A stretch of DNA of 40,610 bases from Bacillota bacterium. GTDB taxonomy: Bacteria > Bacillota > Negativicutes > Sporomusales > CTSoil-080. The number at the start of each line of letters is the position of its first letter. Positions within the stretch are counted from its first letter, which is position 1. The stretch lies in assembly GCA_017889625.1 (NCBI GenBank), contig JAGGAD010000018.1, positions 1 through 40,610 of the forward strand, in the 5' to 3' direction. Below are positions 22,206 through 40,350 of this stretch, piece after piece. The translations under genes and the position numbers were made by a program. The notes beneath the pieces are model-generated. The model searched no databases and was not told the DNA's origin. It was given only the letters and a program-made list of their open reading frames with translations.

Positions 22206-23423
22206 TTAGAAGTATACCGCAATTTGTCCACGATATACTTTAACATTATCCCGACCAGTATCAGCATCTTTACCTGCCATATACCACGCTGTAAACTTAG
22301 AATTTAGGGTTGGAACATAATCAAACCCAAACCGTACACCTTTAAAATTTATATCGAGAATACGATCCTCAGTATCTTTATCGGTATAATACACCGCATT
22401 GGTCGGCGTTTTACGATAATTTACAAACAAATCCCCTGAGCCAACTACCGTACTATCAGCAACTTTATATTGCAATTGAACATAATACGCTTTGTTGGCA
22501 ATATCATTATTTGACTTGGCGGCAACAGCTGTAAATTTTAAGTCATCCATTATTTCTGTATCAAACCCCACGGTACAGTATTTATTCTTCGCACCGCTAA
22601 CGTCTATCTGCTGAAAATTGGCCCTGACATTTGTATCCTTGCCAATAGCCCATGCGACATCCATACCGGTATATCCATTATCTGCATCCGTATTGCTAAC
22701 ACTGATTGTCGTTTTTACAACATTTCCGAACGACGCTTCAGCCCCCATGACCCTACCAGCAAACACTAAACCATACGCCGGTTCATAGTTATATTTTCCA
22801 AACTTTATACTAGCACCAGCTAACGGTCCCGCTATGTATAGTTGTTCTGTTTGCGAATCGATTCCCTCATTATCGGCTATAGCATTATCGCCTGCCGAAT
22901 CACCAGCATTAGCATTATTGATCTGCCTTTGAAATTCATTTTCAACATTAACCGTCCAATCAGTATTCACTCGATAAGCATAGTTAATATCTAAATTTAC
23001 ATGGCGGTCATTATAAGTACTTCCGTTGCGTTGTGTATCATACCTTACCCGAGTCGCACCCGATAGTTGCAACGCATTTATTTTATCTTCCATCGCTTTT
23101 ACTCGAATGCCAAGTCCGGCAAGTTCATCTTTATACTCATCAGCCAATTTATCAATAAGTTTTCTTTGCTCTGCTGAGGCCTTGTCCTCTTTCACTATAA
23201 CCTTAGCTACTATAACCGCAAATTCGTAACGAGTAAGTGTTTTGTCACCATTAAATCTGCCAAGCCCATCCCCTTCGAGAATACCATCAGCCACTAACTT
23301 TTTCACTGCACTATAAGACCAATGATTTATCGGTACATCAGAAAAAGGAGTCGCCGCAAACGCCATGCTATTAATACCAAAGATCAATACCAACGCCAAA
23401 ATTATCCACAAACTTATTCTCAT
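22206..23423 (-). CDS. SLH-domain outer-membrane porin (OmpM type)
   Basis: 405 residues. A signal peptide (1-23, ending MAFAA) is followed by one SLH domain (about 24-75: PFSDVPINHWSYSAVKKLV, then LTRYEFAVIVAKVI), a short coiled coil (80-115) and a roughly 280-residue beta-rich barrel ending in QIAVYF. The terminal phenylalanine is the signal for outer-membrane assembly. In Negativicutes such proteins both form pores and tether the outer membrane to the cell wall through the SLH domain. Start ATG 23423 has GAGGGGGAG upstream. It lies 18 bases after the first porin gene; the two share 30-40 residues of similar N-terminus and arose by duplication. Confidence 0.9.
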   Translation of the reverse strand: MRISLWIILALVLIFGINSMAFAATPFSDVPINHWSYSAVKKLVADGILEGDGLGRFNGDKTLTRYEFAVIVAKVIVKEDKASAEQRKLIDKLADEYKDELAGLGIRVKAMEDKINALQLSGATRVRYDTQRNGSTYNDRHVNLDINYAYRVNTDWTVNVENEFQRQINNANAGDSAGDNAIADNEGIDSQTEQLYIAGPLAGASIKFGKYNYEPAYGLVFAGRVMGAEASFGNVVKTTISVSNTDADNGYTGMDVAWAIGKDTNVRANFQQIDVSGAKNKYCTVGFDTEIMDDLKFTAVAAKSNNDIANKAYYVQLQYKVADSTVVGSGDLFVNYRKTPTNAVYYTDKDTEDRILDINFKGVRFGFDYVPTLNSKFTAWYMAGKDADTGRDNVKVYRGQIAVYF

Positions 23424-23441
23424 CTTTTCTCCCCCTCACAT

Positions 23442-24752
23442 TTAAAAGAAATACCTAATTTGACAACGAAAATAATTATCTTTCCATGAATCGTTTGCGG
23501 TAGTCGCTTTCATCTTGGCATAGATAAGCTCAATCAGGGTTTTCTTCATAGGAACAAATGAGTAGCCAAATTCAAGGCCATTGGTTCCATGGTCAGGGTC
23601 TTGAACAACAAACGTTGGATAAATTGCCGCGTTAGCTTCGATTCTTTCGTAATTAAGATAAACGCCATATGAGCCAGGGTTCATAAAGTCAGGGAACTTA
23701 TAGTTAAGTCCTACAAGGTATGATTTACTATCCGTTTCATAGCTAGATTTTCCATGAAATACTGTCAATGATATGTCTTTCGTTAATCTCCTATCAAACC
23801 CAATCGTTGAGTAATGTCTACTTGTTACACTAGCATCACGCCACACCTTGAAATAGCCTAAGTTGGCATTAGTATCCAAAGTTACAGGATAGAACAATTC
23901 TGCAGCCACAATGGATGGTTCTGTTGTTGAAGTAACACCATACAACGGATCCGTCAACCGCATATTGCAAGGATAATAAAGGTAACCCCAGGTCATGATT
24001 AATTGCGGCTTTAGTTGTCCTGAAGGAGGTCCGGGCGGTTCGCCATAAATAGCAGGATTGTTCAAACCAAGTTGTATGCCATGGATATTCGCATCATAAA
24101 GTACGCCATAAGAAGTAAACTCATGAAACTCGCCAACAGTAAGCGATGAGGTGCCAATTCTACCCGCGATGCCAAGCTGTTTCGCTTGATCACTCGTACC
24201 AATAGGATCACCATCAGATACATTGATAAAGTCTCTTAGGTATTCCTGAACTGTAAAAACAGACCAATCATTATTTACTTTGTAATTAGCATTCAATTGA
24301 AGCTTTAATCCATCTAGAAGTTTGTTGTTAACATTTGAAGTTCCCGCGCCCATGTCCCCATGTTCATATTTGGCGAAGACAATCCCAAAAACATGGGCTT
24401 TGTCAAGTTGTTTACCCAACCTTTCAACATGAACACCTAACACTGAAAGTTCCTCGGCAAATTCAGCAGCTAGTTTATTAATAAGGGCCTGATCATCGGC
24501 ATGGCCCTTGTCAACTCGAGCCATGGCATTTGCTACCAGCATTGCCATCTCATAGCGAGTAATTGTTTTGTTTCCCTGGTAAGCCTCCCCTGTAGAATTC
24601 GGCAAAACACCATCTCGCGCCAACTTGGCAATTGCCGTATACGCCCAGTGATTTGCCGGAACATCCACAAAAGCATTTGCAGCAGCAAATACCGTACTCG
24701 CAATTGTCAGGACAAACATAAGTACCAATACAACTACTGTGCACTTTTTCAT
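23442..24752 (-). CDS. SLH-domain outer-membrane porin (OmpM type), first of a tandem pair
   Basis: 436 residues: signal peptide (1-23), SLH domain (about 24-78, AFVDVPANHWAYTAIAKLAR and ITRYEMAMLVANAM), a predicted coiled stretch (80-115) and a beta-barrel of about 320 residues ending in QIRYFF, again with a C-terminal phenylalanine. A loop with PPGPPSG (near 240) is unusual for a barrel and probably faces outward. ATG 24752 has AAGGAGG 7 bases upstream. It is first in an operon with the second porin and perhaps the secreted SnoaL-like protein. The 264 bases before it are AT-rich with no gene I can support. Confidence 0.9.
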   Translation of the reverse strand: MKKCTVVVLVLMFVLTIASTVFAAANAFVDVPANHWAYTAIAKLARDGVLPNSTGEAYQGNKTITRYEMAMLVANAMARVDKGHADDQALINKLAAEFAEELSVLGVHVERLGKQLDKAHVFGIVFAKYEHGDMGAGTSNVNNKLLDGLKLQLNANYKVNNDWSVFTVQEYLRDFINVSDGDPIGTSDQAKQLGIAGRIGTSSLTVGEFHEFTSYGVLYDANIHGIQLGLNNPAIYGEPPGPPSGQLKPQLIMTWGYLYYPCNMRLTDPLYGVTSTTEPSIVAAELFYPVTLDTNANLGYFKVWRDASVTSRHYSTIGFDRRLTKDISLTVFHGKSSYETDSKSYLVGLNYKFPDFMNPGSYGVYLNYERIEANAAIYPTFVVQDPDHGTNGLEFGYSFVPMKKTLIELIYAKMKATTANDSWKDNYFRCQIRYFF

Positions 24753-27215: not shown

Positions 27216-27252
27216 GATAACCTTATATGATAAGCAAATTTATAAGGTTATC
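27216..27252. repeat. 12-bp inverted repeat spanning the carbamoylase stop codon
   Basis: GATAACCTTATA and its exact inverse flank a 13-base loop; the stem includes the last codons and stop. It may protect the operon's 3' end. No T run follows directly. Confidence 0.5.
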
Positions 27253-28443
27253 ACAAGCAAGTGAAAAACTTTCTATTTTTGTATATTCTTCGGGACTGTG
27301 GCTTTTGCCGCCAATACTAGGCATGAAAATCATCGCTGAATCAATGATTTGGGCAAAAGCCTTCGCATCATGACCTGCCCAGCTAAACAATTCCATCGAA
27401 TTCGGAAGCTCAATAGCTCTCAAGCTATATAGTAGTTCTTCCGAGAAAAACTTCACCGGCGTATATATTTCATTTACTAACTGCACCTCTACCCCATATT
27501 TTTCTCTGAGCGATACTGCATACTCTTTGATTTGTTTTGCAAGGGCAAGGGCAAGGGCATCGTCTGTCGCCCGGAAGTCTACTACGAGCGACGCCATGCC
27601 TGAAATGACGTTATGAAGATTTGGATAATTAGACAGACGGCCTACTGTCGTGACTGCCTCGCCGCTATTAGCTTGGCCAAGCTCCCACGTTTTCTGTATT
27701 AGGTCGGCTGCAGCTACTAATGCATCCCGGCGTCCGTTCATAACCGTAGGGCCTGCATGGTCGGCGGCACCCGCAAAATTGAAAAACAGACGTCCAATAC
27801 CGACAATTCCCTGTACAATTCCTATATCGTAGCCAGCAGTCTCCAGCACATCGCCTTGCTCTACGTGCACTTCTAGATACTTGCTGTAATAATCCTTTGC
27901 CCACCCGAGATCGGTGCCAAAGGGCACTCCCTCAAATATACCGCTTTCTTTTCTAAGGGTTTCAATGTTTTTTCCCGCCGCATTTTTGTAGGACAACATC
28001 TCATCGATGCTCATATCGCCGGTCATAAAGCGAGCGCCAAAATACCCCTTCTGACAGATAAGGCCTTCCTCATCGGCTGTTGCTAAAACTTCAACCGGGT
28101 ATTTGGGACACAAACCGTTTTCATGCATCATCGCAATCAACTCCAGGCCGACTACAATTCCGGCAACCCCGTCATAGGCTCCAGCATTGTATACGCTGTC
28201 AATATGTGATCCAATGGCAATCGGTTTTTCTCGGCTTGCCATTGGATCATAGCGACCAATTAGGTTGCCAAATGTATCCATCCGAACTTGCATATCCAAC
28301 TCATCCATTATCTCCCTCAGATATTCTATCGAGTCTACCCAAGCCTGCGAATAGGTTGGACGAGTAATTTTTCCCGGTTCTTCCGTAAAACTAGCAATAG
28401 TTCGCAACCATTTCTGCATTCTTTCTGGATTTGATTTGACCAT
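27223..28443 (-). CDS. M20-family N-carbamoyl-amino-acid hydrolase / allantoate amidohydrolase type
   Basis: A 406-residue zinc-dependent amidohydrolase of the hydantoinase/carbamoylase family. Metal ligands are visible as His80 (GSHIDSV), Asp91 (AGAYDGVAG), Glu126 (ATADEEG), the EVHVEQG histidine near 193 and the C-terminal GGKSHSPEEY. A lid domain with GAADHAGPT and RRDA sits between. Members cleave N-carbamoyl-L-amino acids, N-carbamoyl-beta-alanine or allantoate to the amine plus CO2 and ammonia. With the hydantoinase-like gene 42 bases upstream it should complete ring degradation. Which substrate is used cannot be settled here. ATG 28443 follows AAGGAG by 8 bases. Last gene of the operon. 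Confidence 0.88.
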   Translation of the reverse strand: MVKSNPERMQKWLRTIASFTEEPGKITRPTYSQAWVDSIEYLREIMDELDMQVRMDTFGNLIGRYDPMASREKPIAIGSHIDSVYNAGAYDGVAGIVVGLELIAMMHENGLCPKYPVEVLATADEEGLICQKGYFGARFMTGDMSIDEMLSYKNAAGKNIETLRKESGIFEGVPFGTDLGWAKDYYSKYLEVHVEQGDVLETAGYDIGIVQGIVGIGRLFFNFAGAADHAGPTVMNGRRDALVAAADLIQKTWELGQANSGEAVTTVGRLSNYPNLHNVISGMASLVVDFRATDDALALALAKQIKEYAVSLREKYGVEVQLVNEIYTPVKFFSEELLYSLRAIELPNSMELFSWAGHDAKAFAQIIDSAMIFMPSIGGKSHSPEEYTKIESFSLACDNLINLLII

Positions 28444-28485
28444 GACGAACTCTCCTTCTTAAAAAAACATTTACCCCTACATTAG

Positions 28486-29871
28486 CTATTTACTACTCAA
28501 AAATCGGCCTTGTCCCGCCTGCAACAAGACCTGTTCGTTCGAATATGCAATTCGGCCTCGCGCAATTGTACTAACAACTTGATGGGATACTGTAAGATCA
28601 TCATATATAATCGCACTCTCTCGACATTTACAGCGCAGATTTTGATGATTGATATACTCCGGCGTTCTCAGCTTTTTTACTATAACAAGGTCCGCATCTC
28701 GGCCCCTCGCAATTCTTCCCTTTATTTTATCAAGCCCAAACAGTTGCGCTGTATTTTCAGCGGTGTTTTGCGCGATCATTTCATAAGTTAGTTTGTGTTG
28801 CTCAACCAGCCGTAGCAACAAGAGAAGTGTCAATTCAAGGCCTGGCAAACCGTCAGGTGCTTGCCAAATACTATTGCCACTTTTGCACTTTTCCTCCCGG
28901 GTAAACGGAGCATGATCGCTTCCTGTTAGCTCAATTTTTCCCTCACTATATCCTTGCACCAGTTGGTCTACACAATTTCGAATGCGAAACGGTGGTTTCA
29001 TACGGGCAAACCCACCATACTCATCCATTGAGTCACTATCGAAAGTAAGATAGTTAACACATGTTTCGGCATGGATATCTAGGCCCTTTTCTTGTGCCTG
29101 GCAGATCATCTTCATTGACTCAGCGGAACTCACATGTGCTACAATAGTTCGGCATCCAGTGGCCTTTGCCGCGCATATCGCTCTTGCCACAGCCCTTGCC
29201 TCGGCTTCTTCTGGACGGGACGCACAAAAATCCCTAACTCGGTTACCGTCTTTTGCTCGTATTTGTTTTGTCTTATCAGCAATTATGCTGCCCTCTTCGC
29301 AGTGAATCGTTAAAGTAAGACCCGTTTCAGCAATACAGGCCATTACTTTTTCAAGATCACCAGAGCTAGCCGAGCAAAGACCATAAAATTCCTTTTCTCT
29401 CCCTACAACCGGCGGCATCAGAAACGTCTTGAAGCCAATAGCACCAGCTGCTGCAAGCCGCGGAATTTCATCAAGATTATCAGCCCCGGCACCGCCGTAT
29501 AGCGCAACATCTATACAGGCGTCACGGGTAACTTCATCCACCCGTGACAGAAAATTTTCCAGTGTAGAGGCAGGTTTTGCACATCCTGGCATCTCAAATA
29601 AAGTGGTAATGCCAGCGGCTACCGCCGCCATAGTGCCTGATGTAAAGTCTTCGCGATAAGAAAATATTCCGCCTCGAATATGCACATGGGAATCAATTAC
29701 CCCTGGGAAAATCAACCGTCCTGTCGCATCAATATTTTTTTTGGCTGGTGATAACGCACATGGTCGTTCAACTATTTGTTCGATTTTCCCACCATTTATA
29801 CCGATGCTGCCCCGTCGACAGCCCTCTGGCAATACCAGCGTACCATTTAAAATATTAATACTATTATCCAT
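28486..29871 (-). CDS. cyclic amidohydrolase (allantoinase/dihydropyrimidinase/hydantoinase family)
   Basis: A 461-residue TIM-barrel amidohydrolase. DSHVHIRGG carries the first two metal histidines, GFKTFLMPP the lysine expected to be carbamylated, LTIHCEE and IVAHVSS two further histidines, and LTGSDHAPF the catalytic aspartate. Length and motif spacing are closest to allantoinase (AllB-like) but dihydropyrimidinases and hydantoinases share them. The reaction is hydrolytic opening of a cyclic amide or imide such as dihydrouracil, hydantoin or allantoin. It starts 15 bases after preA and precedes the carbamoylase, which fits the second step of reductive pyrimidine breakdown. Confidence 0.88.
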   Translation of the reverse strand: MDNSINILNGTLVLPEGCRRGSIGINGGKIEQIVERPCALSPAKKNIDATGRLIFPGVIDSHVHIRGGIFSYREDFTSGTMAAVAAGITTLFEMPGCAKPASTLENFLSRVDEVTRDACIDVALYGGAGADNLDEIPRLAAAGAIGFKTFLMPPVVGREKEFYGLCSASSGDLEKVMACIAETGLTLTIHCEEGSIIADKTKQIRAKDGNRVRDFCASRPEEAEARAVARAICAAKATGCRTIVAHVSSAESMKMICQAQEKGLDIHAETCVNYLTFDSDSMDEYGGFARMKPPFRIRNCVDQLVQGYSEGKIELTGSDHAPFTREEKCKSGNSIWQAPDGLPGLELTLLLLLRLVEQHKLTYEMIAQNTAENTAQLFGLDKIKGRIARGRDADLVIVKKLRTPEYINHQNLRCKCRESAIIYDDLTVSHQVVSTIARGRIAYSNEQVLLQAGQGRFLSSK

Positions 29872-29886
29872 TATTTTCCTCGCAGC

Positions 29887-31101
29887 TCATTTTTTCATCA
29901 TTGAAATACAACCCTGAGGACAAATTTGGGTACATAGACCACAACCCTCGCACTTATCGTTGATGCATACCGCACTCTTTCCCTCGATGCGTATCGCTCC
30001 AGCCGCATTATTATCTCGGCAAGCCGTTACACATTTCCCACAACCAATACATTTTTCCGCGTTCACGTACGCGTATAGTTTATAGTCTCGATTTAGATCA
30101 ATCTGTTTAGTAACATTGACTAACGCCTTGCCTCTAAAGTCTTCAATTGTCCCAAAGTCCATTTCTTCCATATAACGCAATAATCCGGCAGTTAGTTTAT
30201 TAATAACTCCGTATCCATGTTCCATGACTGCAGAACAAACCTGCAATGTCTGTGCACCTAACAAGATAAATTCAGCGGCGTCTTGCCATGTATAAATTCC
30301 GCCAGTGGCTGAAATAGGCAGATTGGTCGCCGAGGCCAACTGCATCACGCAGCGCAATGCAATCGGCTTAATGGCCTTCCCGCTTAGGCCCTGCAAGGCA
30401 CTCATACCATCAACTGAATTATAAGGGATAAAAGTTTTGAGATTAACGCCAGGTAAGGAACTCATCGTATTAATAGCCGCAATAGCATCTGCCCCGCTGG
30501 CTTTAGCCGCAATACCTTTACTCTGTACATCCATAGTCAGTGCCGTTAACTTGGGAATAACCGGCTTTGTGGTTTCTTCGCGGACCCAGGAAACCACCTT
30601 CTTGATTTGTTCTTCATCCGTTCCCAGCATTGCTCCACAGCCACTTTCAGCCTGTCCATGCGAACATGATAGGTTAAGTTCAAATCCATCTACGCCGGCC
30701 TGCTCGAAAATTCGCGTCGTTTCTCGCCATTCCTCTTCTTTAAGAACGTCGGTATGCATAAGACTTGCAAACACGGCATTCTCCGGGAACCGTTGTTTGA
30801 GCCAGAGGATACCTTCTGCCCACGCTTCTAGTGTTTTTGCGCTACCAATTTCAAAGTTGGTAAAGCCGATAATTTGACTTTTATCTCTAACGGCGTGAAT
30901 TCGCGGAGTAACATTTTGTTTAATAAATCTGGGAGTGTATTGCACAGATTTAATGACCGCTCCACCCCACCCCATCTCAAAAGCCCGCGCAATGTTTTCT
31001 GGCGAAACAGTCGGGGGCGCAGACGCTAGAATAAAAGGATTCTTTAAGTGTATTCCGACAAAATTTGTTTGCAATGTTGCTGACATCTTCGTTTTCCACA
31101 T
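29887..31101 (-). CDS. preA: PreA-like dihydropyrimidine dehydrogenase subunit with ferredoxin domain
   Basis: A 404-residue protein. Residues 5-310 form the FMN-binding barrel of class-1 dihydroorotate/dihydropyrimidine dehydrogenases; the active-site NLSC motif is present (ELNLSCSHG, with Ser instead of the usual Pro after Cys) and ATGGIYTW binds the FMN phosphate. Residues 345-404 hold two [4Fe-4S] ferredoxin motifs (CIGCGKCVTAC and CEGCGLCTQICPQGC). E. coli PreA (about 411 residues) reduces uracil or thymine with electrons from the flavoprotein PreT. No PreT gene is in this operon or window, so the electron donor may be ferredoxin. ATG 31101 follows GGGGAA. Confidence 0.88.
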   Translation of the reverse strand: MWKTKMSATLQTNFVGIHLKNPFILASAPPTVSPENIARAFEMGWGGAVIKSVQYTPRFIKQNVTPRIHAVRDKSQIIGFTNFEIGSAKTLEAWAEGILWLKQRFPENAVFASLMHTDVLKEEEWRETTRIFEQAGVDGFELNLSCSHGQAESGCGAMLGTDEEQIKKVVSWVREETTKPVIPKLTALTMDVQSKGIAAKASGADAIAAINTMSSLPGVNLKTFIPYNSVDGMSALQGLSGKAIKPIALRCVMQLASATNLPISATGGIYTWQDAAEFILLGAQTLQVCSAVMEHGYGVINKLTAGLLRYMEEMDFGTIEDFRGKALVNVTKQIDLNRDYKLYAYVNAEKCIGCGKCVTACRDNNAAGAIRIEGKSAVCINDKCEGCGLCTQICPQGCISMMKK

Positions 31102-31124
31102 CCGTTCCCCATAGAATTTGCCGA

Positions 31125-31712
31125 TTATTTTTCTCTTTTCACTATAAGATTGCTGATAAAGCTGCTAAAATCGCTAATAATTTCTTTGTTAGTTCTATTT
31201 CTGTCATCCATCGCCAGACCATAAACACACGGCAGTTCTAGTTGTCGATCAGTAATTTCTTTTTTCAATTCCTCAATGAATATGCCCGGCCTATTAATAA
31301 GGGTTCGCGGTATCTCTTTGGGGCGACCGCCCCAATCTTCGCAATAGCTTGACATGCTACTACCGCAGGTAGGCGAACCATCACAGGTAAGTATTGCGAT
31401 CACATCGTATGAAATTATTTTATAATTTTCCATATAATCGGCCATCTGTCCAGCTAATTGCCGGCAAAACCGGCGGTACCCTACGTTATCATAAAGATTT
31501 CTGCTATTCCACCACCGCTGATTACCCATATACAGCGTTTCCGGACAAGGCATTTGTATAACTCCCATTCCAAAGTGATCCAATACCTGGATCACTTCAG
31601 AAAACATGCCAGGATAACGAGCAAATTCCCTTACTTTATTGTTTGCATTCAACAAGCAGTTTGCAACAAAAACTACTTTTTTGCTACGCGCATCTTCCTT
31701 GTGTAACGACAC
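31125..31712 (-). CDS. TudS-related putative desulfidase (DUF523-like)
   Basis: A 195-residue protein with cysteines at 19 (NCLLNA), 56 (MPCPET), 110 and 116 (TCDGSPTCGSS). This cysteine layout is that of DUF523/TudS, where three cysteines hold a [4Fe-4S] cluster whose free iron removes sulfur from thiouracil-type compounds. The CD3072-like branch of the family fits the length and motifs. GTG 31712 has AAGGTG 8 bases upstream. It lies 23 bases before preA, which reduces the uracil ring, so desulfurisation of a thiopyrimidine followed by reduction is a natural reading. Activity is inferred from family and context. Confidence 0.8.
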   Translation of the reverse strand: MSLHKEDARSKKVVFVANCLLNANNKVREFARYPGMFSEVIQVLDHFGMGVIQMPCPETLYMGNQRWWNSRNLYDNVGYRRFCRQLAGQMADYMENYKIISYDVIAILTCDGSPTCGSSMSSYCEDWGGRPKEIPRTLINRPGIFIEELKKEITDRQLELPCVYGLAMDDRNRTNKEIISDFSSFISNLIVKREK

Positions 31713-31732
31713 TGCCTATCACCTTTTCTTTC

Positions 31733-31772
31733 TTAGAGAAACCACCCAATATCGCTTCGGCGGTTTCTCTAA
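31733..31772. repeat. intra-operon hairpin between binding protein and desulfidase genes
   Basis: A perfect 11-bp stem TTAGAGAAACC/GGTTTCTCTAA. No T run follows on the minus strand, so it more likely stabilises the upstream binding-protein message than ends transcription. Confidence 0.65.
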
Positions 31773-31784
31773 GTTGTATCATTA

Positions 31785-32822
31785 TTATTGCAAAGACTTA
31801 GCTGCCTGCTCCCACGGCTGCTTATCGTAGACTTTTTCTGGTAATTTCTTGATAATTTTATATTTTAGGGCTAAGTCTTCTGTTGCTTTGATACTTTTTT
31901 CATCAAGATAACAGATTTTATCGGTGGTTATGCCTTGTGGCATAACCAGTTTGGCAATTTCTTTGGCAAACGCCAATTGATGCGCCTTATTATTACTGGA
32001 ATGGTCAAGGTACTTCCACACAATCTCCGTTGCCCCCTCCGGATCCTTACAAGCTTCCGCCCAGCCTCTCATTGTAGCTCGCATAAACTTTGCAGCAACC
32101 TCTGGATTATTTGCAAGCCATTCAGTGTTAGCAATAAGGCAGTCCTCCAGCATACCGGATCCTTCTTGTTCTAGATCGATAACATTGAGATCGCTTGCCG
32201 CAAGACCGGATTCCAACAACACCAGATATTCATTATAGGTATGGGCCGATGCTACGTCTATAGAACCATTGAGAAAAGCATCCATAGAATTATCCTGTTT
32301 TACAAGCATGAGATCCTTATCCTTATTTAAACCATATTTATCAAGTAACGCATAGATTGGGTATTCAGCTGTTCCCAGCCAAGCACCAACCTTTTTACCC
32401 GCAAGATCTTTGGGACTGTTGATTCCTTTGTCTTTTTTGGAAACTAGCATAAAAGAACTTTTTTGGAATATTTGTCCAACTTCGGTAATCGGATGACCCT
32501 GCTCTTCAAACGGTAAGATACTATAAAGGTTAGCGATACCAAACTCTGCCGCGCCGACTGAAACCTGGTTTGTCGCCACAATGTCTGGCCCACCGGGAAT
32601 AAAGTCAACATCAATACCTTCTTCTGCATAGTAACCTTTTTCTTTAGCATAATAGAAACCCATAAACTGCGCTGAAGGTAACCATTTTAGTTGTAAGCGG
32701 ACGCTAGTAAGTTTTTTCCCGTTATCCGCTGAGTCCGAATTTGAATTGCCGCACCCCGCCACCAAACCGATTACTAACGAAAGAGCTACCAATAACCCCA
32801 TAAATTTAGCTATCTTGTTCAT
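31785..32822 (-). CDS. ABC transporter substrate-binding lipoprotein, NMT1/THI5-like
   Basis: About 345 residues. A lipoprotein signal peptide ends in LVAGC (lipid-attached Cys24). The mature protein starts with VRLQLKWLPSAQFMGFYYAK, the hallmark of NMT1/ThiY-type binding proteins that recognise thiamine pyrimidine precursors, riboflavin or related heterocycles, and is close to the nitrate/taurine group. I prefer the ATG at 32822, which has AAAGGAG 7 bases upstream, to the one six bases earlier. It follows the permeases by 18 bases. Given the enzymes downstream its ligand is probably a pyrimidine- or hydantoin-like ring compound. Confidence 0.88.
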   Translation of the reverse strand: MNKIAKFMGLLVALSLVIGLVAGCGNSNSDSADNGKKLTSVRLQLKWLPSAQFMGFYYAKEKGYYAEEGIDVDFIPGGPDIVATNQVSVGAAEFGIANLYSILPFEEQGHPITEVGQIFQKSSFMLVSKKDKGINSPKDLAGKKVGAWLGTAEYPIYALLDKYGLNKDKDLMLVKQDNSMDAFLNGSIDVASAHTYNEYLVLLESGLAASDLNVIDLEQEGSGMLEDCLIANTEWLANNPEVAAKFMRATMRGWAEACKDPEGATEIVWKYLDHSSNNKAHQLAFAKEIAKLVMPQGITTDKICYLDEKSIKATEDLALKYKIIKKLPEKVYDKQPWEQAAKSLQ

Positions 32823-32840
32823 ATTCATTCTCCTTTGTTA

Positions 32841-33611
32841 TTATTGTTGAGATGTGTGCCATTTGAGAGCGTAATACTCAACTAAGGATACAACGCCGTA
32901 CATCAAAATGCCGCAAAGGGCAGCAGCAACAATATAGGCCCAACCAAGACTCATTTGCGACAGTTTAAGTACGGTCGAAAGTTCAAAGCCAATGCCATGG
33001 TATGATGTGAAAAATTCGCTGCAGATCGCGGCCATTAACCCAATCGTTGTGTTGATTTTTAACGCCGTCAGTACATTGGGTACACTGTTAGGCAGACGTA
33101 GTTTTAAGAAAATTGTCTTCTTATCCGCGGCGTAAGAATTCAACAAATCAAGCGTAAAGGGTTTAAGTACCGTCAACCCGCGGTAAGTGTTGATTGCCAT
33201 CGGAGCCATCGAAAACATTGTAACTACAGCTATCTTTGAACTCATCCCCATACCAAACCAATTGTTCATAATCGGGGCCATTGCAATCATTGGAACAGCG
33301 TTGAACGCAGTTACTAAAGTCAATCCTCCACTGCCCCATTTGGGAAAAATAGCTGTTAACATCGCGAACATAAACCCTAAAATGGATCCAAGAAAAATAC
33401 CGACGAGTGCTTCGCACATTGTAAATTTTGTATTTTCCATAACCACATCAAAGTTTGAATAAAGTGCCCCGGCGATGTCAGTCGGTAATGGCAGTTGATA
33501 CGGTTTTAGCTGTAACAACACATGAAAGCCCCCCACTTGCCAGCAGAAAATAAACAATATACCAAACATCACCGCAATAATACCATTGACAAGATTTCCG
33601 CTTCTTTGCAT
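32841..33611 (-). CDS. ABC transporter permease (SsuC/TauC type), second of two
   Basis: A 256-residue membrane protein with six hydrophobic segments. The EAA-type coupling loop lies near residues 160-180 (LDLLNSYAADKKTIFLKLRL). It belongs to the nitrate/sulfonate/taurine permease group. Its ATG overlaps the stop of the first permease by one base (TGATG), so the two are translationally coupled and probably form a heterodimer. GAAGGTG upstream acts as ribosome site. Confidence 0.88.
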   Translation of the reverse strand: MQRSGNLVNGIIAVMFGILFIFCWQVGGFHVLLQLKPYQLPLPTDIAGALYSNFDVVMENTKFTMCEALVGIFLGSILGFMFAMLTAIFPKWGSGGLTLVTAFNAVPMIAMAPIMNNWFGMGMSSKIAVVTMFSMAPMAINTYRGLTVLKPFTLDLLNSYAADKKTIFLKLRLPNSVPNVLTALKINTTIGLMAAICSEFFTSYHGIGFELSTVLKLSQMSLGWAYIVAAALCGILMYGVVSLVEYYALKWHTSQQ

Positions 33612-34408
33612 CAGCTAACACCTTCTTCCCGGTCACCCTTTTCCCAATGCACTACTAATTTTTCGATAAAAGCTATTACGGCATATCCGAAGATACCCAG
33701 CAAGGCCGCCATAATCACGGATGCCCAAAATATCAAGGCTCCATTAGCACCGTAATACAACGAATTTAAAATTTTTATTCCAATACCTTCCTTGGTTCCC
33801 AGCATCTCCACCAGTATCGCGGCTGTAATCGCAGCTGGCGCGGAGAGCTTAAGACCAGAGAACAAATGCGGCAAGGCTGCCGGAATCATTAGTTTACAGT
33901 AAGTATCAATTTTAGTTGCCGTATATGAATAAACTAGTTCAATTTTATCCTTGTCGACGCTCTTAAGGCCACTATACATATTAACCGCTACCGGGAAAAA
34001 AGTAATAAATGCCGAAAGCATAATACGGGCTGCATCCTGACTTTTGACAATCGAGTATACAATAGGCGCGAGAGCCAAAACTGGAATCATTTGTGAGATA
34101 ATAAGATAAGGAAACAACATCTTCCCTACGAATTTTGCTAAGCTCATAACAATAGCCACAGCTACGCCAACCACAGCACCAAGAATGAACCCGATAAAGG
34201 CTCTCGACAATGTCACCATTGCGGAAGCTAACAACGAATTAAAGTTTACCAAAAAGGTACCAGCAACCTGATGAAAATATGGAAGTTTTTGCATATGCAT
34301 ACTGTCGTGCATGACATTCTGCAATACCCACGCTCCACATTCCCACGCTAAAATAAGTCCTACAAACCAGACCAGCGCGGCAATATTTTTAGTTCTTCGG
34401 GCTTCCAT
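33611..34408 (-). CDS. ABC transporter permease (SsuC/TauC type), first of two
   Basis: About 265 residues with six membrane segments and the coupling loop KIELVYSYTATKIDTYCKL near 165-185. ATG 34408 is preferred: it has GGGGGTG 5 bases upstream and starts 2 bases after the ATPase stop; the ATG 21 bases earlier would overlap the ATPase gene. It pairs with the second permease as the membrane channel of the uptake system. Confidence 0.87.
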   Translation of the reverse strand: MEARRTKNIAALVWFVGLILAWECGAWVLQNVMHDSMHMQKLPYFHQVAGTFLVNFNSLLASAMVTLSRAFIGFILGAVVGVAVAIVMSLAKFVGKMLFPYLIISQMIPVLALAPIVYSIVKSQDAARIMLSAFITFFPVAVNMYSGLKSVDKDKIELVYSYTATKIDTYCKLMIPAALPHLFSGLKLSAPAAITAAILVEMLGTKEGIGIKILNSLYYGANGALIFWASVIMAALLGIFGYAVIAFIEKLVVHWEKGDREEGVS

Positions 34409-34410
34409 CG

Positions 34411-35184
34411 TCACACCCCCATGAAACATTTTCGGATTCTTGCAAGCAACGACATAAATTCAGGAGTGTCACGCACCTCATTTGACCGTGGCCGAGGTAA
34501 ATTAATATCAATAACATCCGCAAGTTGTCCCGGATGCGGCGTCAACACACACACCCGATCCGAAAGAAATACCGCTTCTGAAATATTATGGGTCACGAAA
34601 ATCACGGTTTTATGAGTCTTGCTCCAAATTTTTAGTAAGTCTTCCTGCAATTTATTGCGAGTAAACTCGTCCAAGGCCGAGAACGGCTCGTCCATCAGCA
34701 AAATCTTAGGATTTATGGCAAGCGCTCTCGCAATACCGACCCGTTGCTGCATACCGCCGCTCAGTTGGCGAGGATAACGATTAGCATAGTCACTGAGCCC
34801 TACTAATTCCAGCATTTCTTCAGCTATCTCGTTCCGCTCGACCCGGCCTATTTTCATAATTTCCAGCGGCAGACAAATGTTTTTCTGGATAGTCCTCCAC
34901 TCATACAACACCGGATTCTGAAAAACCATCCCATATTGTCTTGTTTTTCTTGCTTCCCCAGGTGTAAGACCACCAATAACGATTTCTCCCGTGGTAGGTT
35001 TTAAAAGATCTGCCATTAGCCGCAATAGAGTAGTCTTACCACACCCGGAAGGTCCTAACAATGATATAAATTCACCTTCCCGAATATTAAAATTAACATT
35101 ATTAAGTGCAGCTATAGCTTCGCCTTTTTGGCCTTTATAAACCATGCTGACATTTCTGATTTGTATCTCGGAAGTGCTACTCAT
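34411..35184 (-). CDS. ABC transporter ATPase (SsuB/TauB type)
   Basis: 257 residues from ATG 35184, which has AGGAGG 8 bases upstream; the open frame continues 20 codons further up through a hairpin and should not be used. Walker A GPSGCGKTT lies at 44-52, the signature is LSGGMQQRV, Walker B is ILLMDEPFSALD and the H-loop is FVTHNISEA. It energises the two permeases. Close family relatives drive import of taurine, nitrate, sulfonates and heterocyclic vitamin precursors. Confidence 0.92.
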   Translation of the reverse strand: MSSTSEIQIRNVSMVYKGQKGEAIAALNNVNFNIREGEFISLLGPSGCGKTTLLRLMADLLKPTTGEIVIGGLTPGEARKTRQYGMVFQNPVLYEWRTIQKNICLPLEIMKIGRVERNEIAEEMLELVGLSDYANRYPRQLSGGMQQRVGIARALAINPKILLMDEPFSALDEFTRNKLQEDLLKIWSKTHKTVIFVTHNISEAVFLSDRVCVLTPHPGQLADVIDINLPRPRSNEVRDTPEFMSLLARIRKCFMGV

Positions 35185-35209
35185 AAGAAAAACCTCCTGA
35201 TAATAAAAG

Positions 35210-35245
35210 AATGGCGCAAGAATCCTTAAAAATCCTTGCGCCATT
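35210..35245 (-). terminator. intra-operon hairpin before the ABC genes
   Basis: AATGGCGCAAG pairs perfectly with CTTGCGCCATT and is followed on the minus strand by TCTTTTATTAT, just before the ATPase ribosome site. It likely acts as a partial terminator or attenuator between the MmgE/PrpD gene and the transporter. Confidence 0.65.
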
Positions 35246-35305
35246 GCAATTCTTTAATATATATTTTCCATTTAATGAACTACTTATCTCTATTTAAAAA
35301 TTATG

Positions 35306-36700
35306 TTAAATCTTCTCTCCTGCATCGTTAACAAGATCTAACAACCGTGACATATCCCGCTGATTTTCAAGGTTCTCGATAAACTCAATAATTCTGTCCG
35401 TCCTTAAGGGATCACTGTAGATACGATTAGCCAGCCCACGGAATTTGTCTTTAACATCATTAAATCGTACTGGATTCCTCCAATCACCCTTGGGGTCTTC
35501 AACTACAGCTTCATACTTTTTCCCATCTTTCATCGTAATTTCCACGGCACTTGAGTAATGTTCAGGATACCGACGTTCAAACTCTGGGTCTTCTACAACA
35601 TCCGTCACCGAAATTAAATATCTAACTAGCGGATCCTCAATATACTTAACATCAAATTCATCCACCGTTACTTTCCCATTTTTGAATGCGATAGCTGCTT
35701 GGTATGGCATGCTAAACTGCAAATCTACAATATTTTTGGGATCCCATTTTCGCTTTTCTGCCAAAAGTCGCATAGTGTATTTTGAAGAACGAATATGGAT
35801 TTTTTCAATTTCATCCGCCCTCGGCTGATGCTTTTCCACAATCTCTAAACAAGCATCCAAATGACCACCCGAATAGCGGCAACAAGGATATACTTTTATA
35901 CTTGATGAAGCAAAAGTCCACTTATCCCCGAGGCCTTCCAAAATATATTTTGTATCAAAATGATCAAGATAGGAATATGCATGCATAAGACCATCTTTGC
36001 CCTCATAAATGTCGGACGGGCCATTAAACCCCTTTTTGGCCATTCGCGCGGCAATAATCGAATTCATTGCTGGATGCCCTGCCTGAAGGCGTTTAGTAAA
36101 CGAACCCTCAGAATTCCAAGCCATAAGTCCAGCAACCATGCTGCCTGCAATTCCCTGAGCATAAACCATTTGCAATTTATCAAGTTTCATCAGCTTTCCC
36201 GCCGAAACAGCAGCCCCCATGGTTCCACAGGTACTAGTTGGATGAAAACCTTGGTAATACATATCTCCTAAGTAAGCCGTTCCCATGCGGCATACTACTT
36301 CATTACCTAAAGAAACTGCTTCAATAAACTGCTTCCCGCTGGCCTTGCTGTACTCGGCTAATGCCAAGCTTACCGGATACGTAGCTGGAGACGGGTGCGC
36401 ATTTGACTCATTATGGTCGTCAACAAAATCATAACCGTAGCACTGTATCGCATTGGCAAAGGCAGCGTTTGGCAATGCAACTTTTTTAGCCAAACCTACG
36501 ATTGAACCTTCTTCTGGTCCACCAAGTTCCTGCGCAATCTCTCTCGCAATCTGGCTTGTTGAAAGGTTCCTTGTCCCAACCATAGAGGCCAACACATCCA
36601 GAGTTAGTAGCTTGGCATGATCCACCGCATAAACAGGCAAATCTTCATAATTTAATTCTACGGTCAACTGTGAAATTTCTTCTGCAATTGTTTTTCTCAT
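35306..36700 (-). CDS. MmgE/PrpD-family protein
   Basis: A 464-residue protein from ATG 36700 (GGAGG 7 bases upstream). It shows family landmarks: YGYDFVDDHNESNAHPSP, GFHPTSTCGTMGAAV, GSFTKRLQAGHPAMNSI and the KVYPCCRYSGGHLDA stretch. The family includes 2-methylcitrate dehydratase, cis-aconitate decarboxylase and iminodisuccinate epimerase; many members are uncharacterised and sit in amide- or hydantoin-degradation operons. No other methylcitrate-cycle gene is nearby, so PrpD itself is unlikely. As first gene of the operon it may act on the product or stereochemistry of the ring substrate. Confidence 0.85.
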   Translation of the reverse strand: MRKTIAEEISQLTVELNYEDLPVYAVDHAKLLTLDVLASMVGTRNLSTSQIAREIAQELGGPEEGSIVGLAKKVALPNAAFANAIQCYGYDFVDDHNESNAHPSPATYPVSLALAEYSKASGKQFIEAVSLGNEVVCRMGTAYLGDMYYQGFHPTSTCGTMGAAVSAGKLMKLDKLQMVYAQGIAGSMVAGLMAWNSEGSFTKRLQAGHPAMNSIIAARMAKKGFNGPSDIYEGKDGLMHAYSYLDHFDTKYILEGLGDKWTFASSSIKVYPCCRYSGGHLDACLEIVEKHQPRADEIEKIHIRSSKYTMRLLAEKRKWDPKNIVDLQFSMPYQAAIAFKNGKVTVDEFDVKYIEDPLVRYLISVTDVVEDPEFERRYPEHYSSAVEITMKDGKKYEAVVEDPKGDWRNPVRFNDVKDKFRGLANRIYSDPLRTDRIIEFIENLENQRDMSRLLDLVNDAGEKI

Positions 36701-36907
36701 CAAAATTCCTCCATATATTACTATTTAGCAACTTTCTTGCAATTTTATTTCGTCTACAAAAAACCGCCAAGTATCAGTAAAACTCCATTCTTGCAGCTCT
36801 TAATACAACTAGTATTACTTGATTGAACCTCAAAAACTATTACCTCCGCATCTTTCAAAAGCTGCTTCTTAGAAATAAAAAAATAGGCTGCAAAGAACCA
36901 GTTGCCT
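36701..36907 (-). promoter_or_regulatory. operon leader with possible attenuator
   Basis: The leader of the MmgE/PrpD operon is about 220 bases. It contains AGGC/GCCT (36885-36888 with 36904-36907) followed on the minus strand by A and T7 (36877-36883), a weak terminator-like structure, and an overlapping 17-codon frame beginning GTG ATG with AAGGG before it. A second frame stays open for 53 codons without a normal start. No T-box or known riboswitch motif was recognised. Confidence 0.35.
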
Positions 36908-36927
36908 GCTCCATTGCATCACCCTTG

Positions 36928-36979
36928 ATTTAAATTATACGGATTATAAGCAGAAAAAAAAGGACATATGTCTCTTTTT
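36928..36979 (-). promoter_or_regulatory. 52-bp repeated promoter/operator element, copy A
   Basis: Identical to the copy at 38617-38668 at 49 of 52 positions. On the minus strand it holds the dyad GACATATGTC (36963-36972) and two TATAAT boxes (36943-36948 and 36934-36939). The dyad centre is at -40.5 relative to the second box, the usual position of a Crp/Fnr-type activator. The adjacent 36980-37126 is AT-rich and shows nothing else. Confidence 0.6.
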
Positions 36980-37126
36980 GTCAGATATAATATAATAAAG
37001 TTTTAAAAAACTACTTGGTAATTAATGTCTACTTAACTGGCTCTATTTTTTTATGGCCATTTGGAAAATTTATTAACGGTAAACACTTTACTACTGAACC
37101 TAAAAATTGCCCCAGGGCTTAGGTTT

Positions 37127-37180
37127 AATGCAAAAAACAACCAAAACAGCGCTCACACTGTTTTGGTTGTTTTTTGCATT
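37127..37180. terminator. very strong terminator behind the YnfM-like MFS gene
   Basis: A perfect 23-bp stem (37127-37149 with 37158-37180) with an 8-base loop and A/T-rich arms, 72 bases after the MFS stop on the minus strand. Confidence 0.9.
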
Positions 37181-37251
37181 TTGGATCGTTGGTAACTGCA
37201 CGACAATTTTTTCTGCCAATACTGTTCCCATTTCTAGAATTCTATCATTAT

Positions 37252-38460
37252 TTAATAATTTTTACATGAAGCCTTAAAATTTTCTTTATATAGTAAGTTA
37301 GCAGCAATAATTATTGCAAATAATAATGCAATACCAATTAATAATGTTACGCCATGCCAACCCCGCCACAGAAGGAACTGACCTCCAATAGTGCCAAGGC
37401 AACTAGAACCAGTATAGTAAAACAAAAGGTACAGCGAAGAAGCATGTGCTTTACTATTGGTAGCGGTCTTCCCAATCCAACTACTAGCAACTGAGTGACA
37501 ACCAAAAAAGCCAAAGGTAAAGAATGCTAAGCCAATAATTTTTAAATAGATACTACAGACTAGAGTCATAAGACAGCCTAACATCATTATCGGAATACCA
37601 ACGATCAATACTTTTGGACTGCCATGTTTATCGGCCATTTTCCCCATAAAAGTAGAGCTGAACGTGCCCATCAAATAAACAAAAAATATACAGCCAACAG
37701 CGGCTTGACTAAACTGGTATGGCGGTGCCATTAATGGGTATGAAATATAGTTATACATGGTTACAAAACTGCCCATTAAAAGAAAACCCATAATATAGAT
37801 TAAAAGCAATTTCGGATTTTTTATATTTTCTGCCAGTAGCTGCAAAGTTTTTTTGACGGACTGTTTTCGCGGCATAAAATTTTGTGACACCGGCAAATTA
37901 AACAAAAACCAGATTGCACAAGCAAAAGACAATAGACCAATGAATTCTAAGGCAATACGCCAAGAAAAAAAGTCAGTAATAAAACTAACAATAATCCGCC
38001 CGGCCAGACCACCAACCGTATTACCGCTGATGTAAATACCCATCACTAAACCAGCCGTGGCATGGTCAAATTCTTCACTAATGTAGGCCATGGCTATAGC
38101 GGGAAACCCCGCTAATAATGCTCCTTGCAAAGCTCTAATTCCCAAAATTATATAAAAGTTTGAAAAAAGCGGTAACATTATCGCCAGAATCGAAGATCCT
38201 AACAAAGACATGACCATTATCTTTTTCCGTCCTTTGGAATCAGATAGCCACGACATAATAATCATAAAAATGGCTAAACTGGCTGTTGCAAAAGAAACGG
38301 TTAAACTTGAATAAGCAGGTTGAATATTCATTTCTTTAGAAAATACAGGAATTAATGGTTGAGTGCAATACAACAAAGCAAAAGTTACAAAACTTCCTAA
38401 AAATAATGATATAATTGTTCTCCAATAAGCTTTACTGCCTGTGATTAAGTAATTTTCCAT
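37252..38460 (-). CDS. MFS transporter, YnfM-like
   Basis: A 402-residue protein with twelve hydrophobic segments. The opening LLYCTQPLIPVFSKEM and the loop motif SWLSDSKGRKKIM are typical of the YnfM/arabinose-efflux-like branch of the major facilitator superfamily. GGAG lies 8 bases before ATG 38460. It is monocistronic with a strong terminator and a copy of the 52-bp element 157 bases upstream, so it is probably co-regulated with the MmgE/PrpD-pyrimidine operon. Import or export of a related compound is a reasonable guess. Confidence 0.87.
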   Translation of the reverse strand: MENYLITGSKAYWRTIISLFLGSFVTFALLYCTQPLIPVFSKEMNIQPAYSSLTVSFATASLAIFMIIMSWLSDSKGRKKIMVMSLLGSSILAIMLPLFSNFYIILGIRALQGALLAGFPAIAMAYISEEFDHATAGLVMGIYISGNTVGGLAGRIIVSFITDFFSWRIALEFIGLLSFACAIWFLFNLPVSQNFMPRKQSVKKTLQLLAENIKNPKLLLIYIMGFLLMGSFVTMYNYISYPLMAPPYQFSQAAVGCIFFVYLMGTFSSTFMGKMADKHGSPKVLIVGIPIMMLGCLMTLVCSIYLKIIGLAFFTFGFFGCHSVASSWIGKTATNSKAHASSLYLLFYYTGSSCLGTIGGQFLLWRGWHGVTLLIGIALLFAIIIAANLLYKENFKASCKNY

Positions 38461-38616
38461 GTGCTTTTCTCCTACATTACTAAATGTGTTTTATGAAAAT
38501 TATTTTATCGCTAACATTTTATGCATTCATCCATTGCACTTTATTATATAATTAACATATTGGATTAATTATTTTCATTATCATTGAATGCACTGGCGAT
38601 TAATTACAACAATATA

Positions 38617-38668
38617 ATTTAAATTATACGGATTATAAGCAATAAAAAAAGGACATCTGTCTCTTTTT
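38617..38668 (-). promoter_or_regulatory. 52-bp repeated promoter/operator element, copy B
   Basis: Second copy of the element, with dyad GACATCTGTC (38652-38661) and TATAAT (38623-38628 on the minus strand), centre again at -40.5. It faces the MFS gene. Between it and the plus-strand uridine phosphorylase gene I see only the leader described next. Confidence 0.6.
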
Positions 38669-38835
38669 AAATAGGCGTTCTGTGCTATCTAGCAGACTTT
38701 GGACTAAGAAAAATAGCAGATGAATTATTTTATCTCCTTAGTATAACACTGCACATTGCTTTTGAACGTAAAGAAATTATAAGGTTCTATTTGCATAACA
38801 GAAAAATTAAACTTCCGCACAATGAAGAATTTTCG

Positions 38836-38899
38836 TATAATAAAAAACAAACAAGGAGCGTAATTATAATTGTTATCTAGACAGTTTACAGCTACTTGA
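38836..38899 (+). promoter_or_regulatory. promoter box and short coupled leader ORF before uridine phosphorylase
   Basis: TATAAT (38836-38841) is followed by AAGGAG (38853-38858) and a TTG at 38870 that opens nine codons (MLSRQFTAT). Its TGA overlaps the TTG at 38896 (TTGA), an arrangement typical of translational coupling. Confidence 0.4.
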
Positions 38900-39693
38900 C
38901 GGGACAGAGCATATCTATGGAAAATATAAAAATGCACCACATTGGATGCACAAAGGATGATATTGGGAAATATGTGTTTTTGCCGGGTGATCCTGGACGG
39001 GCTAAATTAATTGCTTCTTATTTTGATAAAACAGAATTTGTTACGTCAAACCGTGAGTTTACTACTTATACCGGTAATATTGATGATACGAAGGTCAGCG
39101 TAACCTCGACCGGGATTGGCGGCCCGTCAGCTGCTATAGCAATGGAAGAACTCGTAAAGCTTGGTGCGCATACATTTATCCGCGTGGGAACTTGCGGCGC
39201 TATCCAAAAAGAGCTTAAGCCGGGAACACTGGTTATTCCCACCGCTGCAATTCGCAAGGATGGAACAAGTCAAGAATATATTCCTGTTGAATTTCCTGCT
39301 GTTGCGGATTTTTCTCTTCTAACGGTACTTAAGGAAGCTGCAGAACGTCTAGGTCATTCTTATCGCATGGGCATTGTAGAATGTAAAGATTCCTATTATG
39401 GACAACACGAACCAGAAAGAATGCCAGTTGGACATATGCTCAGGGAAAAGTGGGAAGCTTGGAAACTGGCTGGTACCCTTGCTTCCGAGATGGAATCATC
39501 CACATTATTTGTAGTGGCTTCTGTTTTGCATGTGCGATGCGCAACTGTATTATTGCTCTATCGTAACAGGGAACGCGAAAAGCTTCTTAATACAGAAGCA
39601 ATCTGCTCAGATCAGGTGCCAGATGCTGTTGAGACTGCGATTGAAGCGATGCGCAGCATGATTATCCAGGATAACCGACAACACCACGGCTAG
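38896..39693 (+). CDS. udp: uridine phosphorylase
   Basis: Up to 265 residues. From the in-frame ATG at 38917 it aligns by eye with E. coli Udp: phosphate-binding PGDPGRAK, NREFTTYTG, STGIGGPSAAIAMEEL, RVGTCGAI, and the nucleoside-binding EMESSTLF. It splits uridine with phosphate into uracil and ribose-1-phosphate in the cytosol. The start is TTG 38896 (coupled to a nine-codon leader) or ATG 38917; neither has a strong ribosome site of its own. It is followed 13 bases later by the Crp/Fnr gene. Uracil made here could feed the PreA pathway encoded to the left. Confidence 0.87.
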   Translation: MTGQSISMENIKMHHIGCTKDDIGKYVFLPGDPGRAKLIASYFDKTEFVTSNREFTTYTGNIDDTKVSVTSTGIGGPSAAIAMEELVKLGAHTFIRVGTCGAIQKELKPGTLVIPTAAIRKDGTSQEYIPVEFPAVADFSLLTVLKEAAERLGHSYRMGIVECKDSYYGQHEPERMPVGHMLREKWEAWKLAGTLASEMESSTLFVVASVLHVRCATVLLLYRNREREKLLNTEAICSDQVPDAVETAIEAMRSMIIQDNRQHHG

Positions 39694-39706
39694 AGAGGTA
39701 GCACCT

Positions 39707-40350
39707 ATGATTAAAAAGCTGATTAATGAGATAGCAGATACTAAATCACGCCAGTGGCTTTTTAATTTACTGCAATTCATGTCAGACGAAGTGCTACAGA
39801 ATTGCAGGCTTTTATATCGTAAAAAAGGAACAACACTTATCCATGTAGGCGATATGGCAGATTCTGCTTATTTGCTTGTTGAAGGCTCGGTCAAAATTAT
39901 AAATGAACTGCCTAACGGTGTAGTCTATTCCTTTGCCAAGTTATATGCACCTGAGTTGTTAGGCGAAAATGAACTGCTTGCTAATTTCCCATGTTATCGC
40001 GGTACGGTAGTATGTGAAACAGATTGTAAGTTTATCTATTTATCTAAGAAAGATTTTTTGTTGTGGCTAAAGAAAAGTCCTGAAACACTATATCAGGTTA
40101 CGGTTGCAATTATTAAAAAAACAGGCTTGCTTATCATCTTGCGCAATATTATGAGGTTAAAGCAGAAAATGATATTTGTGTGTTAAATATTCCACGTAGC
40201 CAACTTGCCGATGAAATTGGGTTTTGCGTCAAAACAGTTGACCGTTGCATTCGAAAATTTAAGGATTCAGGACTAATAAATCGACAGGGCATGAAAATTA
40301 CTATCACTAAAAAACAATACCTACTACTTCAAAATTTTAATTTTCATTAA
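39707..40350 (+). pseudogene. Crp/Fnr-family regulator split by a frameshift at an A7 tract
   Basis: The first frame (39707-40186, 159 residues) carries the cyclic-nucleotide-like sensor barrel (GDMADSAYLLVEGSVKII, PELLGENELLANFP) and then loses sense. From the A7 tract at 40115-40121 the -1 frame continues the protein naturally: NRLAYHLAQYYEVKAEND, then the Crp helix-turn-helix RSQLADEIGFCVKTVDRCIR and a stop at 40348-40350. One added A would restore a full regulator of about 214 residues. ATG 39707 follows GAGAGG by 8 bases. Only one cysteine lies in the sensor strands near the usual position, so a Fnr-type cluster is unlikely. It is the best local candidate to bind the 52-bp elements. Confidence 0.85.

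Follow-up and report, generated by a model that had tools for sequence, protein, structure and literature searches.

A duplicated 52-bp promoter element and its predicted Crp/Fnr-subfamily activator in nucleoside and pyrimidine catabolism of Negativicutes

How does a 52-bp sequence come to stand twice, almost unchanged, ahead of two different genes, and which regulator might read it? The question is raised by a locus in a Bacillota genome, of which a stretch of 40,610 nucleotides, here called the window, was analysed. The two copies, A and B, share one layout on the minus strand, consisting of an A-run, the dyad GAGACA-NN-TGTCC, a T-run and the double box TATAAT-CCG-TATAAT. Comparison within the window bears out the initial annotation in that the copies are identical at 49 of 52 bases and point at an MmgE/PrpD operon and the gene of an MFS transporter. 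Their edges are sharp, with no similarity continuing into the flanks on either side, and the runner-up 52-mer in the window (same strand) matches copy A at 29 of 52 bases. The features are as follows.

36928..36979, minus strand: copy A, putative promoter of the MmgE/PrpD operon
36957..36978, minus strand: palindromic operator of copy A, half-sites AAAAGAGACAT and ATGTCCTTTTT, centre about -40.5 (pattern match; same palindrome beside crp relatives)
36934..36939, minus strand: gene-proximal box TATAAT of copy A, likely -10
38617..38668, minus strand: copy B, putative promoter of the MFS gene, apparent recent duplicate (genome BLAST and window comparison)
38646..38667, minus strand: palindromic operator of copy B, half-sites AAAAGAGACAG and ATGTCCTTTTT (pattern match)
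38623..38628, minus strand: likely -10 box TATAAT of copy B, spaced as in copy A
35306..36703, minus strand: MmgE/PrpD family protein, first gene behind copy A (PF03972, PF19305)
27223..35244, minus strand: rest of the operon by domain matches, with an ABC transporter (ATPase, two permeases, NMT1-type binding protein), TudS-related protein, PreA, amidohydrolase and M20 hydrolase
37252..38460, minus strand: MFS transporter behind copy B (PF07690)
38920..39693, plus strand: uridine phosphorylase, udp (TIGR01718, above cut-off)
39707..40350, plus strand: Crp/Fnr regulator gene, disrupted by the loss of 52 bp near 40119, beyond which the reading frame is lost

The operon behind copy A encodes an SsuABC/NMT1-type ABC transporter, a TudS-related desulfidase and a PreA-type dihydropyrimidine dehydrogenase. 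The udp and Crp/Fnr genes lie on the far side of the copies and run in the opposite direction to the MmgE/PrpD operon; a scan of the window found no dyad before this udp-crp unit. Taken together, the genes suggest that the locus serves pyrimidine breakdown. Elsewhere in the window there is no further GACA-NN-TGTC. The genome scan that had been proposed for the element recovered exactly two copies by BLAST (3.30 Mb in 113 contigs; copy B at E 6e-17), and the 22-bp palindrome, allowing up to two mismatches, has no further occurrence in this genome outside copies A and B.

Orthologues of the MmgE/PrpD protein were sought in the class, the order and a sample of the phylum, and among the genomes searched only two carry them (80-81% identity), namely G143 from the same order and G020 from the same class, which belong to two other families than the window genome. 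A search of plasmids with the same protein gave only homologues at about 30%, and the one context examined was unrelated. In both G143 and G020 the genes run in one direction in the order udp, crp, element, MmgE/PrpD, ABC genes, TudS and so on, and the crp open reading frame is intact (232 and 240 amino acids, respectively) and directly upstream of the MmgE/PrpD operon. The palindrome is kept in the intergenic region, as AAAAAAGGACATATGTCCTTTTTTT in G143 and AAAAAGGGACACATGTCCTTTTTTT in G020, and in these two genomes and the window genome palindrome sites were found only at the pyrimidine locus. Over positions 35306-40350 the window differs in arrangement from the orthologous loci L086 and L087, its udp-crp unit being inverted relative to the MmgE/PrpD operon with the MFS gene and a promoter copy in between.

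Each window copy bears two TATAAT boxes on the minus strand (36943-36948 and 36934-36939 in copy A). The orthologues keep the gene-proximal box, as CATAAT in G143 and TATAAT in G020, and not the first one, which was therefore rejected as the -10, leaving the gene-proximal box as the likely one. From the dyad centre to the start of this box there are 28.5 bases in both window copies and in G020, and 29.5 in G143. This agrees with the earlier placement of the dyad at about -40.5 for the window copies; in most relatives the distance is 29.5 bases, i.e. -41.5. The -35 regions had been called poor, and the corresponding position of copy A indeed matches TTGACA at two of six bases. Since the GAGACA half-site and the additional TATAAT are common to A and B and absent from the orthologues, one window copy was probably derived from the other. 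No MFS gene is present at the orthologous loci in G143 and G020, and copy B looks like a recent duplicate, so that A and B should not be read as independently conserved sites. Homologues of the window MFS in the same bacterial family, at 62% and 58% identity, are divergent from LysR genes (L033, G000:C83, 153-2492; L032, 3046-5321) and lack the element, and MFS relatives were rejected as its source on these grounds.

The regulator was approached from the protein side, by searching the intact G143 regulator against 380 genomes of the class, which brought up 15 further genomes with Crp/Fnr relatives at 30-36% identity. A site matrix built solely from the four MmgE/MFS sites was then run over the loci of these relatives, and 14 of the 15 loci, chosen only by Crp similarity, have a site around the crp start (-300 to +50). 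Eleven of these sites outscore all 300 dinucleotide shuffles of their own stretch, and the other three are reached by 1, 2 and 6 of 300 shuffles, the weakest being that of G202. The sole failure is G269, where a strong site lies just behind crp instead. Matrix scores rise to 30.6, against a best of 13.1 in 362 kb of unrelated sequence; the 28 loci with MFS relatives in other taxa were used only as background. The palindrome of the subfamily reads AAAARGACA-YR-TGTCYTTTT. In G229 a second strong site stands ahead of deoC, and in G046, G007, G127, G011 and G029 one stands ahead of a set of ABC-transporter genes adjoining udp.

A search from the side of the site, for the palindrome with at most one mismatch, gave hits in 9 of the 380 genomes. 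Three of these are the MmgE/PrpD operons of the window genome, G143 and G020; in G018, G229 and G273 the palindrome lies near a Crp protein of the subfamily, and in G758 a 5'-nucleotidase gene (TIGR01533) begins 73 bases after it, with deoB-like and pdp-like genes next in line. The other two hits are strong copies of the operator at L130 5265-5286 and L131 5048-5069 (G755, about 1 kb before purE, and G133), with no Crp relative in the stretch read. By curated models the neighbours of the sites include uridine phosphorylase, deoxyribose-phosphate aldolase and cytidine deaminase, together with purine- and pyrimidine-nucleoside phosphorylases, phosphopentomutase and a NupC-type transporter (genes udp, deoC, cdd, deoD, deoB, pdp and nupC). 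These gene neighbourhoods support a predicted regulon of nucleoside and pyrimidine catabolism, with a Crp/Fnr subfamily that has its own operator, reaching beyond this genome. The operator is sharp enough for regulon prediction in other genomes of the class. A limited literature search found no published description of a Crp/Fnr nucleoside regulator or of a YeiL regulon, and the control circuit is apparently new to the literature.

The geometry of these promoters was examined in a set of 25, with near-identical species collapsed, a box being defined as a match to TATAAT at five or more of six positions including A2 and T6. Such a box starts 29-31 bases past the dyad centre in 16 of the 25 promoters (exactly 30 in 12 of them), a count which overstates the independence of promoters from related species, with the peak nevertheless clear; in 20,000 circular shifts of the same sequences the count averaged 1.6 and never exceeded 8. 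Where a -35 hexamer would be expected, at a spacing of 16-18 bp, the best candidates mostly match at 1-3 of 6 bases, and three crp-facing promoters have no box at 29-31. In the class II arrangement known for CRP and FNR, the site is centred at about -41.5 and a -35 hexamer is missing. A centre at -41.5 together with the missing -35 is thus standard class II, which makes activation likelier than repression at these promoters.

The regulator itself can be aligned over its full length with CRP and DNR, in the case of the G143 orthologue as for the subfamily; its N-terminal domain matches the cNMP-binding type (PF00027), and its C-terminal domain is of the helix-turn-helix type. Within the recognition helix K, T and R are invariant; the R aligns with CRP Arg185, which in CRP contacts the operator base at -4.5, and the base at this position of the subfamily operator is an invariant G. 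The A/T-flanked palindrome near -41.5 without a -35 is likewise shared with class II CRP and FNR promoters. In contrast, the half-site is AARGACA rather than TGTGA or TTGAT, and the helix reads K-T-x-x-R where E. coli CRP has R-E-T-V-G-R; with its altered helix and new half-site, the subfamily is well suited to testing the recognition code of Crp/Fnr proteins. G143, G020 and the window copy retain the phosphate-binding arginine of CRP (Arg82), whereas most other members have alanine there. A cAMP-binding CRP in the strict sense is not indicated, as the operator is not TGTGA-N6-TCACA and the CRP model scores far under its cut-off.

No NCBIfam model names the subfamily, with those for CRP, FixK, FtrB and YeiL matching weakly, and the present data would give it an operator, a promoter geometry and a pathway (nucleoside/pyrimidine catabolism). 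The model of the E. coli Crp-family regulator YeiL (NF007707) matches 9 of 14 members, at best with 1.7e-15, but these scores are far under the curated cut-off. E. coli yeiL adjoins nucleoside hydrolase and pseudouridine genes; a literature search found no published YeiL operator for comparison. DeoR and CytR, which act as repressors, control the same pathway genes (deoC, udp, cdd, deoB, pdp, nupC) but are of other protein families. The CytR system has been the subject of a comparative study (PMC3454398).

From the operator-subfamily link, the spacing and the gene functions, all read directly from sequence, we infer binding by the regulator and activation rather than repression. A dimer of the subfamily would bind AAAARGACA-YR-TGTCYTTTT centred at about -41, overlapping the position that a -35 hexamer would otherwise occupy, and would assist RNA polymerase onto the TATAAT 29-30 bases downstream, as in class II activation. 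The genes switched on would be those of pyrimidine and nucleoside breakdown, in this genome the MmgE/PrpD-ABC-PreA operon through copy A, and the MFS transporter gene would have come under the same control through copy B, the apparent recent duplicate promoter. In relatives the same operator precedes crp itself, cdd, deoC, udp and nucleoside-transporter or permease genes. We put the probability that the 52-bp element is a core promoter under an activator of this Crp/Fnr subfamily at about 0.8. The suggestion that both promoters depend on an activator of the Crp/Fnr family represented next door was well placed, given that the dyad tracks the subfamily, sits at class II distance and precedes coherent catabolic genes, and the view of the window copies as a class II Crp/Fnr-type promoter pair in a nucleoside/pyrimidine regulon is supported in substance. 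Several points count against it, including the disrupted regulator in the window, the G269 site behind crp, the sites in G755 and G133, for which there is no explanation, and the MFS homologues that lack the element.

The same operator and regulator could instead act in repression, the bound protein blocking RNA polymerase from -41 until a nucleoside-derived signal releases it. Nucleoside catabolic genes are often repressed, as by DeoR and CytR, the placement of dyads ahead of crp itself would be in keeping with negative autoregulation, and the three crp-facing promoters without a box at 29-31 fit this reading too. A repressor would, however, need neither a fixed distance to the -10 nor a weak -35, and the peak of centres at -41.5 with a poor -35 is the usual place of a class II activator, so that repression seems unlikely.

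Non-regulatory readings fare worse. That the palindrome with its A/T runs is an intrinsic terminator of the upstream crp, standing before a promoter by chance, could be argued from G143 and G020, in which some 40-50 bp separate the crp stop codon from the dyad and the dyad leads into a T-run. No gene ends ahead of either window copy, however, the dyad was not called in a terminator scan, and in relatives its distance to the -10 is fixed and the genes behind it are crp, cdd, udp, deoC and those of transporters; this makes a terminator very improbable. A mobile or recombination repeat devoid of regulatory meaning would account for two near-identical, sharp-edged copies flanking a gene that is missing from the orthologous loci, but many dispersed copies would be expected, as against two in 3.3 Mb. 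Since other families keep the element before the orthologous operon and the palindrome tracks the regulator, we regard a mere repeat as scarcely credible.

The state of the regulator in the window needs correcting. The initial annotation had a Crp/Fnr gene next door, which is present, and spoke of a repaired protein; the gene is more than frameshifted, for measured against the two intact orthologues in G143 and G020 it lacks 52 bp where the last part of the long helix and the hinge would be encoded, and it is out of frame from there on. This assembly holds no other relative of the protein at E 1e-25. The deletion means that the circuit may be orphaned in this genome; unless the assembly is wrong, the two window operators may lack their regulator or be served by a more distant Crp/Fnr protein. 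The suggested small regulon linking transporter, operon and regulator has operators at the operon and the MFS gene and a dyad that tracks the Crp subfamily, but the window crp is disrupted and, unlike crp in relatives, carries no element. The window may illustrate how duplication of a 52-bp promoter brings a new gene into a regulon, and perhaps how a regulon loses its regulator.

Behind copy A a stretch (GGTGATGCAAYGGRGCA) kept in three genomes is followed by a terminator-like hairpin and TTTTTTTATTT, and no such conserved leader stretch is found behind copy B. Two candidate attenuators can be listed.

36876..36924, minus strand: leader attenuator, behind copy A only, in which the hexaloop signature TGCAATGGAGCA (36907-36918) overlaps with a T-run and a hairpin of terminator type (in three genomes)
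35210..35248, minus strand: second attenuator or terminator, which stands between MmgE/PrpD and the ABC genes and repeats the signature (35237-35248)

The 5' arm of the second terminator bears the 12-base signature TGCAAYGRNGCA, the same as in the leader. Leader folding gave z values of -2.7, -2.0 and -2.7 in the three genomes, attenuator-like hairpins occur in the orthologous loci as well (L086 at 8634 and 10240; L087 at 8419 and 9986), and within the three genomes the signature with a T-run is confined to these operons. The loci of the other Crp relatives have no hexaloop signature. As the 5' arm is nearly fixed while the 3' arms differ, the 5' arm probably has a second partner, a small hairpin, UGC-(AAYGRN)-GCA, whose loop has A in position 1 and G in position 4 and which would compete with the terminator stem.

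A1 and G4 are the loop signature of ANTAR targets (PMC8934654), and genes for an EutW/EutV-like histidine kinase and an ANTAR response regulator lie side by side in all three genomes (G000:C97:25910-26068 in L088, where a groES-like gene follows, and L089 and L090). The copy A leader resembles the EutV targets of eut leaders in that the hexaloop overlaps the 5' arm of the terminator, but described functional targets have two closely spaced hexaloops (PMC8934654), and each of the leaders here shows only one of this kind. The leader as an ANTAR target is offered as a lead. A two-layer control, in which the Crp/Fnr operator AARGACA-N2-TGTCYTT would govern initiation and two single-hexaloop attenuators, possibly read by the EutV-like regulator, would govern elongation, with the MFS gene behind copy B subject to the first layer only, is a tentative and rather doubtful proposal.

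A search of the window with Rfam placed the leader in no catalogued RNA family at the gathering threshold and found only a pan motif elsewhere (RF01749, 2420-2500, minus strand), just over the gathering score. The window also encodes two adjoining proteins with N-terminal SLH domains (22206-24752, minus strand), which presumably resemble the SLH porins of Negativicutes.
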